A DNA stretch of 64,000 bases. Origin: Bacillota bacterium (GTDB lineage: Bacteria > Bacillota > Bacilli > Paenibacillales > NBRC-103111). Where the stretch lies: positions 62,001-126,000 of the forward strand of contig JAEWIS010000021.1 in NCBI GenBank assembly GCA_023386955.1, given 5' to 3'. Both the position numbers and the translations under genes were made by a program. How positions within the stretch are numbered: position 1 is the stretch's first letter; the number at the start of each line of letters is the position of its first letter. Under the pieces are notes generated by a model. The model saw only the letters and a list, made by a program, of their open reading frames with translations, did not search any database and was not told where the DNA came from. Shown piece after piece: positions 17,526 through 58,048 of the stretch.

Positions 17526-17604
17526 CTATCCCATTGGTTCGGGAGACAGATGAAAGGGCAGCAGAAAATGACCGAAATCCAGCGGGTATAGCCTGGCAGC
17601 GTAT

Positions 17605-17688
17605 ATGCAGCTTGGTTTACCGTCTACGCAGCTTAATTTACCGATTATGCAGCTTGGTTTACCGTTTATGCAGCTTAGTTATCCTCAT
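17605..17688. repeat. Four tandem copies of a 21-bp repeat
   Basis: Units start exactly at 17605, 17626, 17647 and 17668. The consensus is ATGCAGCTTGGTTTACCGTT; the third copy differs from the first at only one position near its end, the second and fourth are more diverged. The period is a multiple of three and could be read as a heptapeptide repeat, but there is no start signal or wider coding context. No unique spacers, so not CRISPR. Confidence 0.85.
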
Positions 17689-17699
17689 ACGAGGTTGGC

Positions 17700-17882
17700 T
17701 TACGGAACTGAGCGACTCTTAAACGTGAAAAATTAGCTGTTCCAAATTATAACGGAACTAACAGACTCTTAGCGCATCAAAGAGGCAGAAAAACCTGCCC
17801 CGTGGCCGTTTAAGGGTCGTATAGTTCCGTTATTTTGTCAAAACACCCGATTTCGCCCTCTAAGGGTTTCCCAGTTCCGTTA
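17700..17882. repeat. Paired inverted box array, 50-bp period (AACGGAACT type)
   Basis: Boxes of 22 nt at 17700-17721 and 17750-17771 read TWACGGAACT-n5-GACTCTTA. Two inverted copies at 17811-17832 and 17861-17882 read TAAGGGT-n-AGTTCCGTTA. Both pairs have a spacing of exactly 50 bp. The inner pair could form a stem with at least ten paired bases (AACGGAACTA with TAGTTCCGTT). The same layout recurs at 22360 and 54848 with different box sequence. Confidence 0.8.
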
Positions 17883-18321
17883 GAGCGCGCCACCTACCTT
17901 CTGGCCAATGATCGCCTCCATCCCAGCGCCGAATCCACTTTCATCTTAGCCAAAACACCAATTTCGACTTCGGCGGCCAATCGTGCGCTGAAGAGTATGA
18001 CCTCCCCTCCCGAGGAACATCCTACAAAGGCGCCAGGGCGTCCGGCCGAGCCGGAGCTGACTGTGATAGAGAGAGCAACTATGCGGAAACAGACTGGGGC
18101 AGATCTGACTGCGGTGAAGTAAACAGCGTTGGAGTAAATAGTCGCAGGGCAGCAACCGTGGAACGGCAGTGGTGGAGTGGCAGCAGTAGGAGCGGTGGGC
18201 AGCGGTGAAGTAAGCAGCTCCAGAGCAGACAACAGCGGACCAAGCAGTCCCGCAGGAAGCAGCGGTTTGCCTCCGCTCCTCCAGGGTAAGGATTGGTAAA
18301 ACCAGCAGGAGGCTGATGGGG

Positions 18322-22197: not shown

Positions 22198-22604
22198 CTT
22201 TCAGGGCACGCTCCGTTTCTTCAAATTTGAACGTTTCTGGACCATTATATCATAACCGATTCTTATAAATGTCCGCCCCAAGCCCGAGAATATCCGGAAA
22301 AAATCATTGAAACGATTCTGCCCGCCGATGGGTTAGGGGAAACGGGATGGAGGACAGACCTAACGAACCTGTAACATGCTATTTGGCCCAAATGGGCATG
22401 AAAAAAATCTAACGAATCCTAGCCGCTCTATTTGTCCGATTTGGCGTAGAAATGCCATCAAACCGGCGAATAGCGTGCGACAGATTCGTTAGATTTTAAG
22501 AACGCCCGCATGGAGCCAAATAGCGATGCTCCTGTTCGGTAGAGGAGATTCGGTAGAGCAGAATCCCAGAGGTTCTCGCGATTTGGGCGCAGGACACCGG
22601 GACC
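22198..22604. other. Intergenic between MFS and beta-helix lipoprotein genes
   Basis: About 400 bp without a supported gene. It contains the promoter region of the MFS gene on the right edge of that gene and the array of 27-nt boxes at 22360-22542. No terminator for the beta-helix gene was recognised. Confidence 0.5.
22360..22542. repeat. Paired inverted box array, 49-50 bp period (CTAACGAA...CTATTTG type)
   Basis: Two 27-nt boxes at 22360-22386 and 22409-22435 begin CTAACGAA and end near CTATTTG. Two inverted boxes at 22466-22492 and 22516-22542 read RAATAGCG...TTCGKTAG. Spacing is 49 bp in the first pair and 50 bp in the second. The layout (two direct, about 30 bp gap, two inverted) equals that at 17700 and 54931. 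Confidence 0.8.
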
Positions 22605-32925: not shown

Positions 32926-33308
32926 ACCTATTCCTCCCAAACGGCATAGAAGCCGAATTATTGTAAGTACCTTATTTTTAGTATGCACTATTTCTTCTGA
33001 TTTGGATAGCCGAAGTGATGCCTTCTCCTATAATTTATCCCAGCTTATAACGAATCTAACGGTATAACTGTCTAATTTGGCCAAAAAACGCCAAATTACT
33101 CTGATATCCTCCTAATAATCCATTAATTAGACGAATAATCTGCGATTTTATTACTAAATCGCCGACTATTATCGGTTTTATTTTCCAAGATGTGCCTGTT
33201 ATACTAAGTTATAACCATAAGAAGCATAATGCACCAAGCTTCCTTATAGCTGGTTATGGGAGTACATAAAGAGCAGGTAGAAACCATTTCGTGGAGGGAG
33301 ATATTCTG
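32926..33308. other. AT-rich intergenic region
   Basis: About 380 bp between divergent genes. It must carry both promoters. It contains one possible degenerate repeat box at 33048-33080 (TAACGAATCTAACGG then CTAATTTGG). No gene is seen. Confidence 0.5.
33048..33080. repeat. Possible single degenerate copy of the intergenic box
   Basis: CTAACGG at 33056 and CTAATTTGG at 33072-33080 are 25 bp overall, close to the 27-nt boxes found at 22360 and 54931. No second box at +50 bp and no inverted pair is convincing, so this may be a relic or chance. Confidence 0.35.
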
Positions 33309-53264: not shown

Positions 53265-54803
53265 ATGAGCCGTTTCCGGTCTTACTTCATGATACCGCTT
53301 CTATTGGGCTTAGGGCTAGTCCCGGCCGGCTTGGCCGGCTGCTCCGGGCCGCCAGCCGGAGACCCGAAGGAGGAGAGTGCCGAGCCTCTCCGCATCACCG
53401 CCATGGCCTATCTGATGAATGCGGGGAACCCCTCGGAAACCCTCAAGCAGCTGATTGAGGAAAAAACCAATACCAAGCTTGACATCCAATGGGTGCTGGA
53501 CAGCAACTATGACGAAATCATGGAAGCCTCCTTCGCAGCAGGGACATTGCCGCAGGTGGTCTATATCAAAAACCAGGTTTCCTTCCAGCAATACCGGGAC
53601 GCCATGAAAAGCGGCTACTTCTGGGAGGTCGGCCATCTGTTTAAGGACTACCCCAACCTGAGCAGGCTGCGGCCGGAAATCCTGCAGAATACCGCCGTGG
53701 ACGGCAGGGTGTATTCCATCTATGCGGAGGTGCCCTCCTCCCGCCAGGGCATCATCTACCGCAAGGATTGGGCGGACCGACTGGGGCTTGAGGCCCCGTC
53801 TACCGTAGAGGAGCTGTACCGGATGATGAAGGCCTTCACAGAGGATGATCCTGACGGCAACGGGTTGCCGGACACCATCGGCTTGGCGGACCGCAGCGAT
53901 CTGGTCTTCGGCGCCTTCAAAACGGTGTCCTCCTACTTCGGCACCCCCAACAATTGGGGGCTGGCAGAGAATGGGCTGCAGCCGGAATTCCTGTTCCCCG
54001 GCTACCGGGATACAATGGACTTCTTCCGCAGGCTGTACCGGGAGAAGCTGATTAACCGGGATTTTACCATCATGAGCAAAAACGATCAGATTAACCTGCT
54101 GCTAACCGGCAAAGCAGGCATGTACATCGGCTCCATGGAGGATGTGCAGACCTTCTCCCGGAAGCTTGCCGCCCATGACCCTGCTGCTGTCCTGGATGTC
54201 CAGAACCGGATTCAAGGGCCCCGGGGAACAGGCGTATGGGGACTGCCCGGTTATATCTCGGCGGTGGTTTTCCCCAAATCCTCCGTCAAAACGGAGCAGG
54301 AGCTGCGGGCCATTCTCGGCTTCTTCGACCGGCTGATGGAGCCGGAGATGGCGAATCTGGTCACCTATGGGGTCGAGGGTATCCACTATACACTGGTGGA
54401 GGGCAAGGTGCTGTCCAGTGAAAACAGGCAGCTGCTGGAGAAGGAAGTGATTCCCTATGCCACCCTGCTGCAGCGCGGAAACGGCCATGACACCGGGATC
54501 CGGGATTCCTACTTCACCTTGCCCGTCCGGCAGAAAGCGGCACGGCTGGTTCAGGATAATGAGGCCATCGTTATCCAGGACCCCACCGCCGCCCTGGATT
54601 CCAAAACCTTCGCCGAAAAGGGAACCCGCCTGGCGGATATGATCCGGGACGCCACCTATGCCTACATCCTGGAGGAGGGCTCCGGCGACGCCGGATTTAC
54701 GGAGGCGGTGGAGAAGTGGCGTCAGGAAGGCGGCAGCAGCATGATTGCCGAATACAACGAGGCATACCGGCAGCAGCAGGCGGGGGGCCCACTCTCCCGG
54801 TAA
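53265..54803 (+). CDS. Extracellular solute-binding lipoprotein (ABC sugar importer type)
   Basis: 512 residues. The signal ends LAGCSGPP, a lipobox. The mature part has the two-lobed type 1 family fold: ITAMAYLMNAGNPSETLKQLIEE near the start, SSRQGIIYRKDWADRLGL and GKAGMYIGSMEDVQ. The segment EDDPDGNGLPDTIGL is the calcium-binding-like loop found in many Paenibacillus LipO-type binding proteins. These capture oligosaccharides for import, but no permease genes follow here. AGGAGG at 53246 and AAAAGGAT nearer the ATG precede 53265. Confidence 0.9.
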   Translation: MSRFRSYFMIPLLLGLGLVPAGLAGCSGPPAGDPKEESAEPLRITAMAYLMNAGNPSETLKQLIEEKTNTKLDIQWVLDSNYDEIMEASFAAGTLPQVVYIKNQVSFQQYRDAMKSGYFWEVGHLFKDYPNLSRLRPEILQNTAVDGRVYSIYAEVPSSRQGIIYRKDWADRLGLEAPSTVEELYRMMKAFTEDDPDGNGLPDTIGLADRSDLVFGAFKTVSSYFGTPNNWGLAENGLQPEFLFPGYRDTMDFFRRLYREKLINRDFTIMSKNDQINLLLTGKAGMYIGSMEDVQTFSRKLAAHDPAAVLDVQNRIQGPRGTGVWGLPGYISAVVFPKSSVKTEQELRAILGFFDRLMEPEMANLVTYGVEGIHYTLVEGKVLSSENRQLLEKEVIPYATLLQRGNGHDTGIRDSYFTLPVRQKAARLVQDNEAIVIQDPTAALDSKTFAEKGTRLADMIRDATYAYILEEGSGDAGFTEAVEKWRQEGGSSMIAEYNEAYRQQQAGGPLSR

Positions 54804-54847
54804 ACCTGATGCTCCGGCAGAGGTTCTGGCCGCGGGGGTTTTCGGGC

Positions 54848-55115
54848 CGATTAGCCTGGTTTTCCGGCCGTTAGCATTCCAAGCCGGTGATTTGCCGCGG
54901 AAATAGCGGCTCTGATGTCCGGCTGCATTTCTAACGGCGGCCACAGCCGCTATTTCCGCAAATTCGCTGCTTCCCGCATTCTAACGGCGGCCACAGCCGC
55001 TATTTGGACCAAACAGCCTGCGGGATGCCCGTTTGGAGCGGAATAACGGCTCCTGCTTCCGTTAGAATTTCAAACCCCGGGTTTTCGGCTAAATAGCGGC
55101 TCTCACTTCCGTTAG
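54848..55115. repeat. Inverted box array, six units, 50-bp period (CTAACGG...CTATTT type)
   Basis: Two direct 27-nt boxes at 54931-54957 and 54981-55007 share their first 25 bases and are exactly 50 bp apart. Two inverted boxes at 55039-55065 and 55089-55115 (..TARCGGCTC..CTTCCGTTAG) are also 50 bp apart. Two further, more degenerate inverted boxes end near 54874 and 54925. The gap between the direct and inverted pairs is 31 bp. Each box also holds an inner GGC/GCC symmetry. Confidence 0.85.
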
Positions 55116-55257
55116 AAAATCCGACGACGACGGAGCGACCCTAGTTACTGCGATAAGCGGCAGCCACCCGGATAATATCCCCTCAGTTGCCGCATGGCCA
55201 TATTATTTCCGTCCCTCGCACACTCCCAGCGCCGTCACCAGCGCCCGCCCCAACAGC

Positions 55258-55296
55258 AGGAGCCCTGCCGCAGCGTTGCGGAGGGCTCCTTTTTTG
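55258..55296 (+). terminator. Hairpin terminator
   Basis: AGGAGCCCT at 55258-55266 pairs with AGGGCTCCT at 55282-55290, inner stem CCGCA/TGCGG, then six T. It is the likely end of the solute-binding protein transcript, beyond the repeat array. Confidence 0.85.
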
Positions 55297-55309
55297 TTAC
55301 GGCGGCAAA

Positions 55310-58048
55310 TTACCGCTTGATCTTCAGCTCCTGCCCAATGTAGATCAGGTCAGGGTTCGCGATGATGTCCTTATTCCATTCATACAGGGTCCGCCATTGG
55401 TTGGCGCTGCCCAGCAGTGCCTTGGCGATGGCGCTCAGATTGTCGCCGGCCTTCACCGTATAGGTGGTGTAGGACGGAGCGGCTGCGGGCTCCTGAGGGG
55501 CAGCCGGCTGTTCTGCGGCCGGTTGTTCGGCTGCAGGGGCTTCCGGTGCGGCAGGCTGCTCCACAGCAGGTGCTTCCGGCGCTTCCTTGTACGCAACCGC
55601 CAGCTCCAACAGCTGGGTGCGGTTGCCGCCGCCTACGGTGCCGGTATGCTGGATGCCGAAGCCGCCGAAAGTATTGCCGCCAACAGAAGCAGACAAGGAT
55701 ACTTCATTGGGCAGCTTGGCTTCCTTTTGATCGGAGCTTTGGGCCGTGGCCGAGGTTGCCTTTGCATACAGGGTGTTGTTCTCTACCCGCAGGTCAATGG
55801 TGGCGCCCGGATTAAAGGCTGTGGTGGATACGGACTCGCTGATGGGCTTGCCCGCTCCGTTCACGTATTCGTACAGGGTGTAGTCTGTAGCAATCCCGTA
55901 TTTGGTGGTCCGTTCAATACGAAGCGCATAACCGGTTTGGGTAGCGGCATCGTATTTGATGTAAACCTCCAGATATTGTCCGTTCGCGCTGCCGAAGCCT
56001 TGGCCCGCGGTTTTCTCCGGGTTGAGCTTCAGCTGGAGAGACATATCCCCGAAGCGTCCGTCCAGCGGGTACAGCAGGCGTCCGCCGCGTCCTGTGGTCA
56101 ACAGCCCTTGGCTGTCCGCTGCCCCGTTAATACCCTTGGTATAGCTCCAGGCGCTTTTTTCCTCTGCCTTCCATTCTACCTTCTGGTCCTGGGGATAGAG
56201 AGTATCCACAGTCCAGACACCACTCAGCAACTTCGGCTGCCAGGTGGTGGAGAAATGCTCGAAGGTGGTGCGGTAGTTATACTTCTCGATACCAGTGCCG
56301 GAGATATCCTCCAGAGTAATGGCTCTGCTGCTGACAGCGGTAACTGCCGGGCCTTCATGGCTCCGCAGATGCTTGGGCTGAACCGATGCCATCACATAAT
56401 AGCCCACATCGCCCACTGTAAGCGCGTAGGTGCTTAGTGGTTTATTCCCGCGGGATACGGCCATTTCCACCGGATTGGAGCCGTTCTTGTCATCTACACG
56501 ATACCAGGTAACGAGAGACTGATCGGCTCGTACTCCCTTTTCGTAAGACAGGTCCAGACCATATTGAACGGATACGGTACCGTTTTGCGGCTCGGTCAAT
56601 ACAGGTGCTTGGGTAAAAGCAGGTGCATCAATAAAGGACGGGGATACGGTAACCACCGCCTGGTTGGAAATTCCATTATCAGCAGTAGCGGTTACGGTCA
56701 CCTTAACCGGCTCCTCGCCGGTGTTGCGTCCCTCCACCTTCACACTTGCTCCGGTGGTGGCGGAGAGTACAGCAGCATCGCTGTTGATGGACCAGGTAAT
56801 GTTCTGGCTGGCGCTGGCCGGGAATACACCGGCGGTCAGCTCGGCAGAGCCTTCACCCGTGCGGATGGCAGCGGACTGGGTGACGGAGATATTGATGGGC
56901 AGATCCTTCTCTGCTGCAGCGGCGGTCTTCATACCAGCAGGATCCCAGTTGTCCTCACCCTTCAGCAGGCTGTAAACGGAATAGGCCTTCAGCTGCTCCT
57001 GGTTCAGAACCGTGCCGTTTTCCTCCGGCAGAATCGTGTAGGGTTTACCGTCCAGCGTAATATTGTAGGCATACGATTTAATGTTGCTTGCCGGATATGG
57101 CGCCCATTGAATGGACTTCAGATTGCCGTTCAGATCCTTGAAGCTGTTGTTGATCAGGTACAGGGTGGAGGAATTTTTGGCCAGGAACAAATCTTGGCTG
57201 TCGGCAAAATCAATCTCCCACACGCAATCGATAAAGGCCATCCCTTCCTTGCCAGCGGCATAGATCGGCTTGTTGGTGAAGTTGTGGAGGGTCGTGTTCT
57301 TCATCAGCTGAATCACACCGCCGCCCATGTAGTCATCTGTACCCTGCACATAGGAGTTTTCGTAGTATACCCGTTCCACTTCTCCAAGGGCAAGAGTGTC
57401 CAGCATGCTCACGAAACGGACGTTGTCAAAGGAATAATGGTCCAGCTTCTTTTCCTTGTTGGCCGCTCCAATAACATAGGCTTGAGTAATGGTGGAGGAG
57501 CGCTTCTCTTGATTCTTGGAGGGATCGCGGGGGTAGACCAGATCCACATTGCAATAGTTGCCGATGGTCAGATTCTCCGCATGGAAGCCGGTTCCGGTGA
57601 TGAAGATGGTCTCGGCGGGAGAGGAACCGCTGGCGCTTTCGGCGCCGATGGTATGCCCCCGGTTATCTGCCAGCACCACATCGCGGGCGTCTTCAGCAAG
57701 GCCGATCAGGCTGACCCAGTCTTTATCCACATACAGGCCCCGGTCATGCAGGGTCCCGTTCATTTGGTACACATCAGGCTCGATATAAATGGTCATCGGC
57801 TCAGCCTGTGTGCCGTCCACGGCGGCGGCTACCGCTTCATGAAGGGTTTTGAATTGAAAGGCGGCCGGATTGCTTGCTGTGAGAGCGCCGTCTACATACA
57901 GGGACTTGGCACCCAGCACCAGCTGCTTGCCGTTTTTGGCCGTAATGGTTACCCCTCCTGTCTCAGCTTGTACGTTCAGCGCCTGGTATGTAAACATACA
58001 CGTAAAAACCAGCGCCAGACAGATAAACCGGATGAAACTTGTTTTCAT
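55310..58048 (-). CDS. Secreted pectinesterase-like protein with Ig-like and LysM domains
   Basis: 912 residues with a signal peptide ending near NVQAETG. Residues 30-360 form a right-handed beta-helix of pectin methylesterase type (CE8): TIYIEPDVYQMNGTL, FHAENLTIGN, then VRFVSMLDTLALGEVERVYYENSYVQGTDDYMGGG, which keeps two Asp residues equivalent to the catalytic pair. A Big_2-like domain (NITWSINSDAAVLSATTG), further beta-sandwich segments with a concanavalin-like fold, a Pro/Ala/Glu-rich linker and a C-terminal LysM (YTVKAGDNLSAIAKALLG) follow. It probably removes methyl groups from pectin or acts on a related polymer while bound to the cell wall. Confidence 0.85.
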   Translation of the reverse strand: MKTSFIRFICLALVFTCMFTYQALNVQAETGGVTITAKNGKQLVLGAKSLYVDGALTASNPAAFQFKTLHEAVAAAVDGTQAEPMTIYIEPDVYQMNGTLHDRGLYVDKDWVSLIGLAEDARDVVLADNRGHTIGAESASGSSPAETIFITGTGFHAENLTIGNYCNVDLVYPRDPSKNQEKRSSTITQAYVIGAANKEKKLDHYSFDNVRFVSMLDTLALGEVERVYYENSYVQGTDDYMGGGVIQLMKNTTLHNFTNKPIYAAGKEGMAFIDCVWEIDFADSQDLFLAKNSSTLYLINNSFKDLNGNLKSIQWAPYPASNIKSYAYNITLDGKPYTILPEENGTVLNQEQLKAYSVYSLLKGEDNWDPAGMKTAAAAEKDLPINISVTQSAAIRTGEGSAELTAGVFPASASQNITWSINSDAAVLSATTGASVKVEGRNTGEEPVKVTVTATADNGISNQAVVTVSPSFIDAPAFTQAPVLTEPQNGTVSVQYGLDLSYEKGVRADQSLVTWYRVDDKNGSNPVEMAVSRGNKPLSTYALTVGDVGYYVMASVQPKHLRSHEGPAVTAVSSRAITLEDISGTGIEKYNYRTTFEHFSTTWQPKLLSGVWTVDTLYPQDQKVEWKAEEKSAWSYTKGINGAADSQGLLTTGRGGRLLYPLDGRFGDMSLQLKLNPEKTAGQGFGSANGQYLEVYIKYDAATQTGYALRIERTTKYGIATDYTLYEYVNGAGKPISESVSTTAFNPGATIDLRVENNTLYAKATSATAQSSDQKEAKLPNEVSLSASVGGNTFGGFGIQHTGTVGGGNRTQLLELAVAYKEAPEAPAVEQPAAPEAPAAEQPAAEQPAAPQEPAAAPSYTTYTVKAGDNLSAIAKALLGSANQWRTLYEWNKDIIANPDLIYIGQELKIKR

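Follow-up and report, generated by a model that had tools for sequence, protein, structure and literature searches.

In the window, the whole 64,000-nucleotide stretch of DNA that was analysed, an array of short boxes lies between two converging genes, with stop codons at 54803 on the + strand and at 55310 on the - strand. The flanking genes encode an SBP_bac_1 solute-binding protein and a 912-aa protein with a terminal LysM domain. The array is a dyad-symmetric element of four 26-bp boxes, two direct and then two inverted, whose starts lie at 0/50/111/161 (Table 1). The preliminary description of this locus had reported two direct 27-nt boxes exactly 50 bp apart, two inverted boxes at the same distance and two weaker inverted boxes on the left. 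All of these were recovered: the identity of boxes 1 and 2 spans 27 nt (54929-54955 versus 54979-55005), the inverted boxes are exactly 50 bp apart, and the two weaker boxes are 51 bp apart. Boxes 2 and 3 proved to be separated by 35 nt, where that description gave 30 nt. The location between converging genes also held; as for the terminator that the array was said to precede, a terminator-like hairpin with a T run can be read by eye at about 55256-55295, and a terminator scan of 54700-55400 detected none.

The box consensus of the main family is TCTAACGG-N9-CCGYTATTT. The four-box match at 54930 scores 127 of 156, against a maximum of 74 among first-order Markov copies of the window (n=40). 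The best A/T period of the element is 10.05 bp, with none of 500 shuffles equally strong, and the strongest 10.09-bp signal in the whole 64 kb begins at 54834. Rfam matches in the window numbered zero, and PLSDB plasmids held no match to the window array. A CRISPR array was considered and rejected, since 54930 combines two direct with two inverted boxes and the box sequences are variable.

Table 1. Coordinates of the four-box elements of the window and of their parts
Feature	Position	Strand	Description
Complete element	54930..55116	.	187 bp, dyad at 55023, four boxes and phased spacers
Box 1	54930..54955	+	offset 0
Box 2	54980..55005	+	offset +50, same sequence as box 1
Box 3	55041..55066	-	inverted, offset +111
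Box 4	55091..55116	-	inverted, offset +161
Left spacer	54956..54979	.	24 bp, A/T and G/C in phase
Centre with dyad	55006..55040	.	35 bp
Right spacer	55067..55090	.	24 bp
Weaker left half-array	54850..54926	-	inverted boxes 54850-54875 and 54901-54926; 10-bp phase shared with 54930-55116
Second element	17698..17884	.	box family AACGGAACTnnnnGACTCTTA, offsets identical to 54930, score 112
Third element	22359..22543	.	box family CTAACGAATC...GCTATTT, offsets 0/49/109/159
Possible fourth, degraded element	33006..33192	.	found by 10.09-bp rhythm alone, one lone TCTAACGG

Arrays of the same geometry had also been announced near 17700 and 22360. The first has exactly the offsets of 54930, and the second agrees with them only to within 1-2 bp. 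Apart from 54930 and 17698, no position in the window exceeds an exact-offset score of 75; the 22359 array is inconspicuous by this score because its boxes are shifted by 1-2 nt. It is probably real, judging from four same-family copies with the full layout in G008, the nearest relative found, where they lie in differing surroundings and two are nearly identical. In the A/T-G/C rhythm described below, the 17698 array lies 5 degrees from the mean phase (0/1000 shuffles equally strong) and the 22359 array 38 degrees off (5/1000). The rhythm power at 33006-33192, 3.79, is the second highest peak in the window, and this stretch is possibly a further element, now worn down. Judged by open reading frames of at least 150 aa, the 17698 array lies between two + genes and the 22359 array between two - genes; our own codon-score gene calls classed both 17698 and 33006 as divergent gaps, in conflict with the ORF reading at 17698. 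A 21-bp tandem repeat (3.9 copies, 81% matches) occupies 17600-17680, directly before the 17698 array.

Spacing, distribution and box families

A pattern with free gaps, 5-14 inside the box and 5-35 between boxes, matched at least 120 stretches over genome contigs. Among the matches listed, with both gaps free, the two-box match was 58 nt long in 145 of 153, and 211 of 212 boxes measured 26 nt. In 19 genomes picked for carrying the box, 367 matches with a gap of 14-34 were found, against none in a reversed control; in the 14 box-carrying genomes that were searched both ways, the gap was exactly 24 in 267 of 281 such matches. Direct half-arrays lying off locus edges (n=262, counted with overlapping loci kept, so that some arrays are counted twice) were followed by an inverted half at +111 (+-4) in 236 cases, by a weak one in 19 and by none in 7.

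The element class is found mainly in Paenibacillus and related bacteria. Among the stretches listed, 119 of 120 are labelled as Paenibacillus, Cohnella, Saccharibacillus, Gorillibacterium or Paenibacillaceae bins. Within the order, 49 of 392 sampled genomes contain the exact-spacing pattern (reversed control, 0); in a phylum sample of 299 genomes its sole match was the centre itself. The remaining listed stretch (L087) is labelled Bacillus sp. Marseille-Q3570 and contains a full array of four boxes at a spacing of 51 bp; the class possibly extends outside Paenibacillaceae, unless this label is mistaken. A looser pattern matched two stretches of viral contigs. One viral contig, L263 (IMGVR_UViG_2881766583_000004), contains, at locus position 913, a TCTAACGGTTG-type array of four boxes.

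Six box families, including the main TCTAACGG family, have this layout in common. A scan of three genomes and the window by offsets only revealed the further families AACGGAACTnAGnGACTCTTA, CGGACAGAGAATCCGTTATTT, AAATTCCTGCAnATCTGCAGG and CTAACGAATC, and it placed TCTAACGGTTG as a subfamily of the main one. In G141, a member of the order in which the TCTAACGG pair has no match, GGGAACTnnnnnnCGCTATTT boxes keep the layout with a spacing of 50 or 51 bp, and the 51-bp geometry outscores the 50-bp one (15 versus 8 at score 80). Arrays from four of the other families are at best 0.38-0.57 identical to any of 68 main arrays. Two kinds of offset control limit how such scans are read: moving both inverted boxes by 6 is uninformative, being a register shift only that keeps most peaks, and control offsets of 45 and 51, as multiples of 3, gather coding repeats (in G005, at score 50, 16 peaks versus 8 with the real geometry). 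With copies numerous across genomes, spacing near-constant rather than freely varying, and unrelated box sequences set in one layout, the earlier suggestion that geometry is selected over sequence is supported.

A 10.09-bp rhythm through boxes and spacers

When 74 arrays picked by their boxes alone were stacked, the diverged spacers between the boxes were seen to alternate A/T and G/C. Conservation in this stack drops sharply outside 0-187, with one G004 family reaching further. A non-redundant set of 68 arrays, pairwise less than 75% identical and drawn from 20 other genomes and the window, gave a period of 10.09 bp over the whole element (bootstrap 10.08-10.10). The spacers alone gave a best period of 10.10 with a wide bootstrap interval (10.08-12.00), and their power at 10.0 was 1.386, whereas 1000 permutations reached no more than 0.024. 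Every one of the 68 arrays had a spacer phase within 60 degrees of the mean, and the spacer A/T fraction by position modulo 10 ranged from 0.34 to 0.86. The flanks of the same arrays show no comparable rhythm. All 21 arrays of four other box families are in the same phase, within 38 degrees for the whole element and 51 degrees for the spacers; two arrays of the TTG subfamily are also in phase, but they are 83-84% identical to members of the 68 and add little. What unites the box families is the A/T-G/C rhythm, which runs through boxes and spacers.

This rhythm persists at a mean spacer identity of 0.356. In 17 A/T columns across the 68 arrays (1156 cells), the major A/T base occurs 727 times, the other A/T base 309 times and G or C 120 times; A and T thus replace each other and the 'weak' state persists, a pattern that selection for bendability would be expected to leave. 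Among recent copies within one genome, spacer substitutions showed no preference for keeping A/T or G/C (14/79; right tail, 43/156), so that this comparison gives no sign of selection on resident copies.

The rhythm can also be searched for without reference to boxes. Segments of 187 bp with a power of at least 3 at 10.09 bp numbered 11 per 400 kb in G005, 29 in G004 and 50 in G002, and each of five control periods yielded 0-3. Although it lacks the main box pair, G141 has 22-24 such segments at 10.1-10.2 bp; among 22 listed, GGGAACT or GGAACT boxes can be seen by eye in 15, three are one tandem repeat and others seem unrelated. No segment at 9.9-10.5 bp was found in 347 kb of G541, taken from the phylum sample, and none at 10.15 bp in 50 kb of E. 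coli K-12. The 400-kb stretches of G004, G002 and G005 also show GGCGCTATTT and GGCCGTTATTTCGGCC units, and G005 shows AATGCAAAAGTGCAGTTATTT. The G005 stretch (L153-L172) has 19 segments at 9.0 bp, far above the other genomes, versus 10 of its own at 10.1 bp; this excess is perhaps a coding repeat, as the peaks of the 45-bp control geometry suggest.

Rhythm peaks are mostly non-coding (108 of 111 at 10.15 bp in G141, G005, G004, G002 and the window). By the gene calls of our own codon-score script, used in place of an annotation pipeline for all context counts, 32 lie in convergent, 42 in tandem and 13 in divergent gaps, with 21 more sharing a gap; comparison gaps of at least 200 bp numbered 42, 151 and 76, respectively. 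Convergent gaps are therefore enriched for rhythm peaks (odds ratio 3.1, p 6e-5) and divergent gaps depleted (odds ratio 0.45, p 0.015). The 68 box-defined arrays were found in 17 convergent, 36 tandem and 2 divergent gaps, with 13 lacking an assignable context, and a count over 118 gaps, in which some arrays are doubled, gave 37, 75 and 6 against 28, 98 and 48 for other gaps of at least 150 bp. A rule that arrays always lie behind a terminator was rejected: a crude test found a terminator between stop codon and array at 8 of 36 tandem and 5 of 34 convergent gene ends, and the position relative to a terminator is therefore not general.

Proposed wrapping and known systems

With somewhat more confidence than doubt, we assign the 54930 array to a large class of intergenic elements of about 187 bp that has no name so far; the elements are most likely sites at which DNA is wrapped round a protein. 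The phased A/T-G/C pattern would let the DNA bend one way round a protein core, like nucleosome-positioning DNA, and the boxes would offer base-specific contacts to the putative wrapping protein. Free DNA has 10.5 bp per turn. The period of the element is shorter than this, which favours a left-handed superhelical path, and such a path would hold negative supercoils. The preliminary description had proposed, as one of two options, a protein that binds the boxes on one face of the DNA. The phasing and the unrelated boxes agree with a protein; 'one face' holds for wrapped rather than free DNA, since 50 bp corresponds to complete turns only when one turn takes about 10.0-10.1 bp. The elements have dispersed as small units that move or are duplicated and that settle between genes, preferring convergent gaps and entering divergent promoters less often, and a constrained, wrapped knot between genes could then serve as a topological or transcriptional boundary. 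A stronger version, in which sequence-free, geometry-coded mobile elements are wrapped left-handed by a dedicated protein complex into positioned nucleosome-like particles that bound supercoiling and transcription domains, is put forward only tentatively.

A wedge model was used to examine the path of the DNA. Static curvature was slightly above that of shuffles (end-to-end 0.89 versus 0.93 shuffled), and 80 of 1064 window positions exceed 54930 in curvature; strong static curvature was rejected on this slight excess. The phasing would accordingly act through directional flexibility and not through a strong static bend. In the same model, writhe was negative in 59 of 68 arrays versus 36 of 68 shuffled (mean -0.03), and writhe came out negative for test repeats of 10 bp and positive for those of 11 bp.

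Nucleosome-positioning DNA of eukaryotes and archaea carries a rotational A/T-G/C code of about 10.2 bp and is wrapped left-handed. A code of this kind, near 10.1-10.2 bp as in nucleosome-like wrapping sites, is present here, whereas an archaeal-type histone (PF00808) was found in none of the 12 genomes tested. Interspersed intergenic repeats of about 100-200 bp are familiar in Bacillota, for example bcr1 in Bacillus cereus and BOX/RUP in pneumococcus. The 187-bp elements resemble them in being interspersed and intergenic, but those repeats are defined by sequence and the present class by geometry. The bacterial histone HLp binds nonspecifically and wraps about 60 bp (PMC12701072, in part). 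Clusters of A-tracts, that is, helically phased A/T runs, have been proposed to act in nucleoid loops of bacteria, and their description includes no boxes, dyad or fixed length in the part of the source available (PMC3431218); in E. coli the A-tract period is near 11 bp (PMC516772, in part).

Among interspersed elements there is a likeness to BIME and REP sequences, which are also intergenic, present in many copies and built of inverted units. REP units are palindromic, and REPs are 20-40 bp long and tagged by GTAG or CGTC (PMC3733652, in part), a tag absent here from the main box consensus and the other families; the word Paenibacillus is absent from the main text of that article. E. coli BIME-2 contains gyrase cleavage sites (PMC6379681, in part). 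The present elements differ in their fixed 187-bp four-box dyad, their 10.1-bp rhythm and their variable sequence. The statement that no named element has this design stood up to a search of the open-access literature, judged by titles and abstracts, in which no description of the class was recognised.

A class that keeps its geometry and helical phase while the letters turn over would be direct evidence of selection on DNA shape at defined bacterial sites. If a protein wraps the elements, a whole bacterial group would possess positioned nucleosome-like particles, and the role of the 10-11-bp periodicity of bacterial genomes, an old question, would become testable at discrete, countable loci.

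Dispersal and other explanations

A serious rival is that the arrays are selfish, non-autonomous transposable elements of the MITE kind, with boxes 1 and 4 as ends, boxes 2 and 3 as inner transposase sites, and geometry and phasing needed solely to build a transposition complex. Terminal inverted repeats are indeed present as boxes 1 and 4, and several observations on copies agree with mobility. G004 contains 40 or more copies of one family, 88-100% identical, and the 21 that were aligned measure about 350 bp; the differing surroundings of the G008 copies point the same way. In G008 the gap orthologous to the 54930 site lacks the array, its flanks being about 85-89% identical and the stretch about 220 bp shorter; a short part of this gap resembles box 4, so that loss of the array is possible. 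At the 17698 site G008 retains a single box-like remnant, and its contig ends short of the 22359 site. The G005 stretches matching the 17698 and 22359 sites show no array by reading, with more than the array missing at 17698. No readable orthologous site in relatives thus has an intact array. The elements are, moreover, copied whole, as the 236 complete arrays among the 262 half-arrays show, and tandem multiplication is seen in P. faecis.

Other results speak against a purely transposable element. Lone halves number just 14, and only one of the seven direct ones (L086) has an inverted half within 6 kb. By eye, the aligned ends of the 21 copies of the one G004 family show no target duplication; 104 neighbours include no recurrent gene (largest groups, 3), and neither a half-gene-half arrangement nor an autonomous partner was clear among half-arrays and neighbours. 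The layout is also single and the box families many. This explanation is considered rather unlikely. It can be compatible with protein wrapping, and if the elements were merely transposons, their assembly geometry would still be new. Arrays with their flank stand in tandem, about 230-420 bp apart and repeated 3-4 times, in L002 and L019 (P. faecis) and in L017 (Paenibacillus sp. MAHUQ-63).

The arrays might also be strong DNA gyrase sites, corresponding in Paenibacillus to BIME-2 or the Mu site, at which gyrase wraps the element and removes positive supercoils between converging genes. The gyrase wrap is right-handed, which fits a period of 10.75 bp. The E. coli gyrase motif is degenerate, symmetric and 130 bp long, with a G/C content phased at 10.75 bp (PMC6379681, in part); both this motif and the Mu site share with the present elements a symmetric, helically phased A/T-G/C pattern taken as wrapping, and an intergenic, often convergent position would also suit such a role. 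However, the period here is 10.09 bp over 187 bp with conserved, sequence-specific boxes, power in the 68 arrays is 3.68 at 10.0 versus 0.015 at 10.75, and the opposite handedness is expected. A gyrase site is thus improbable.

The other option in the preliminary description, RNA hairpins, was not supported. An RNA element would form hairpins within boxes, or pair boxes 1/4 and 2/3, in a 3' UTR or small RNA. Main-family boxes form imperfect inverted repeats, a terminator-like hairpin occurs in a G004 family, and the inner box pair 10-14 is paired at 0.316 versus the 0.245 predicted from independent columns. Otherwise stem pairs in the 68 arrays occur as independent columns predict (e.g. 0.562 versus 0.562 and 0.621 versus 0.620), and box pairs 1/4 (0.616) and 2/3 (0.546) are no more alike than others (0.585-0.647). 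The window has no Rfam family, and a 10.1-bp rhythm through spacers is unexplained by any RNA model. As base pairing hardly covaries, the element appears to act as DNA, and an RNA function is highly improbable. Chance or simple local duplication, to which the identity of boxes 1 and 2 might point, is refuted by the score against Markov copies and by the recurrence of the layout in other genomes, and its probability is practically nil.

The G004 family of about 350 bp (C1; L213-L242) has a property of its own. Among 200 first-look candidates, the orientation of all 40 scored copies follows the replichore and switches at dnaA (1.852 Mb). Of 30 fetched copies, 29 are faced by the 3' end of a leading-strand gene. 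Replication-strand polarity was rejected as a property of the class: a second G004 family occurs, by eye, in both orientations on one arm, and this, together with the leading-strand position of the facing genes, indicates that the polarity is not class-wide. The elements of the 350-bp family carry their own terminator-like hairpin at the end opposite the facing gene.
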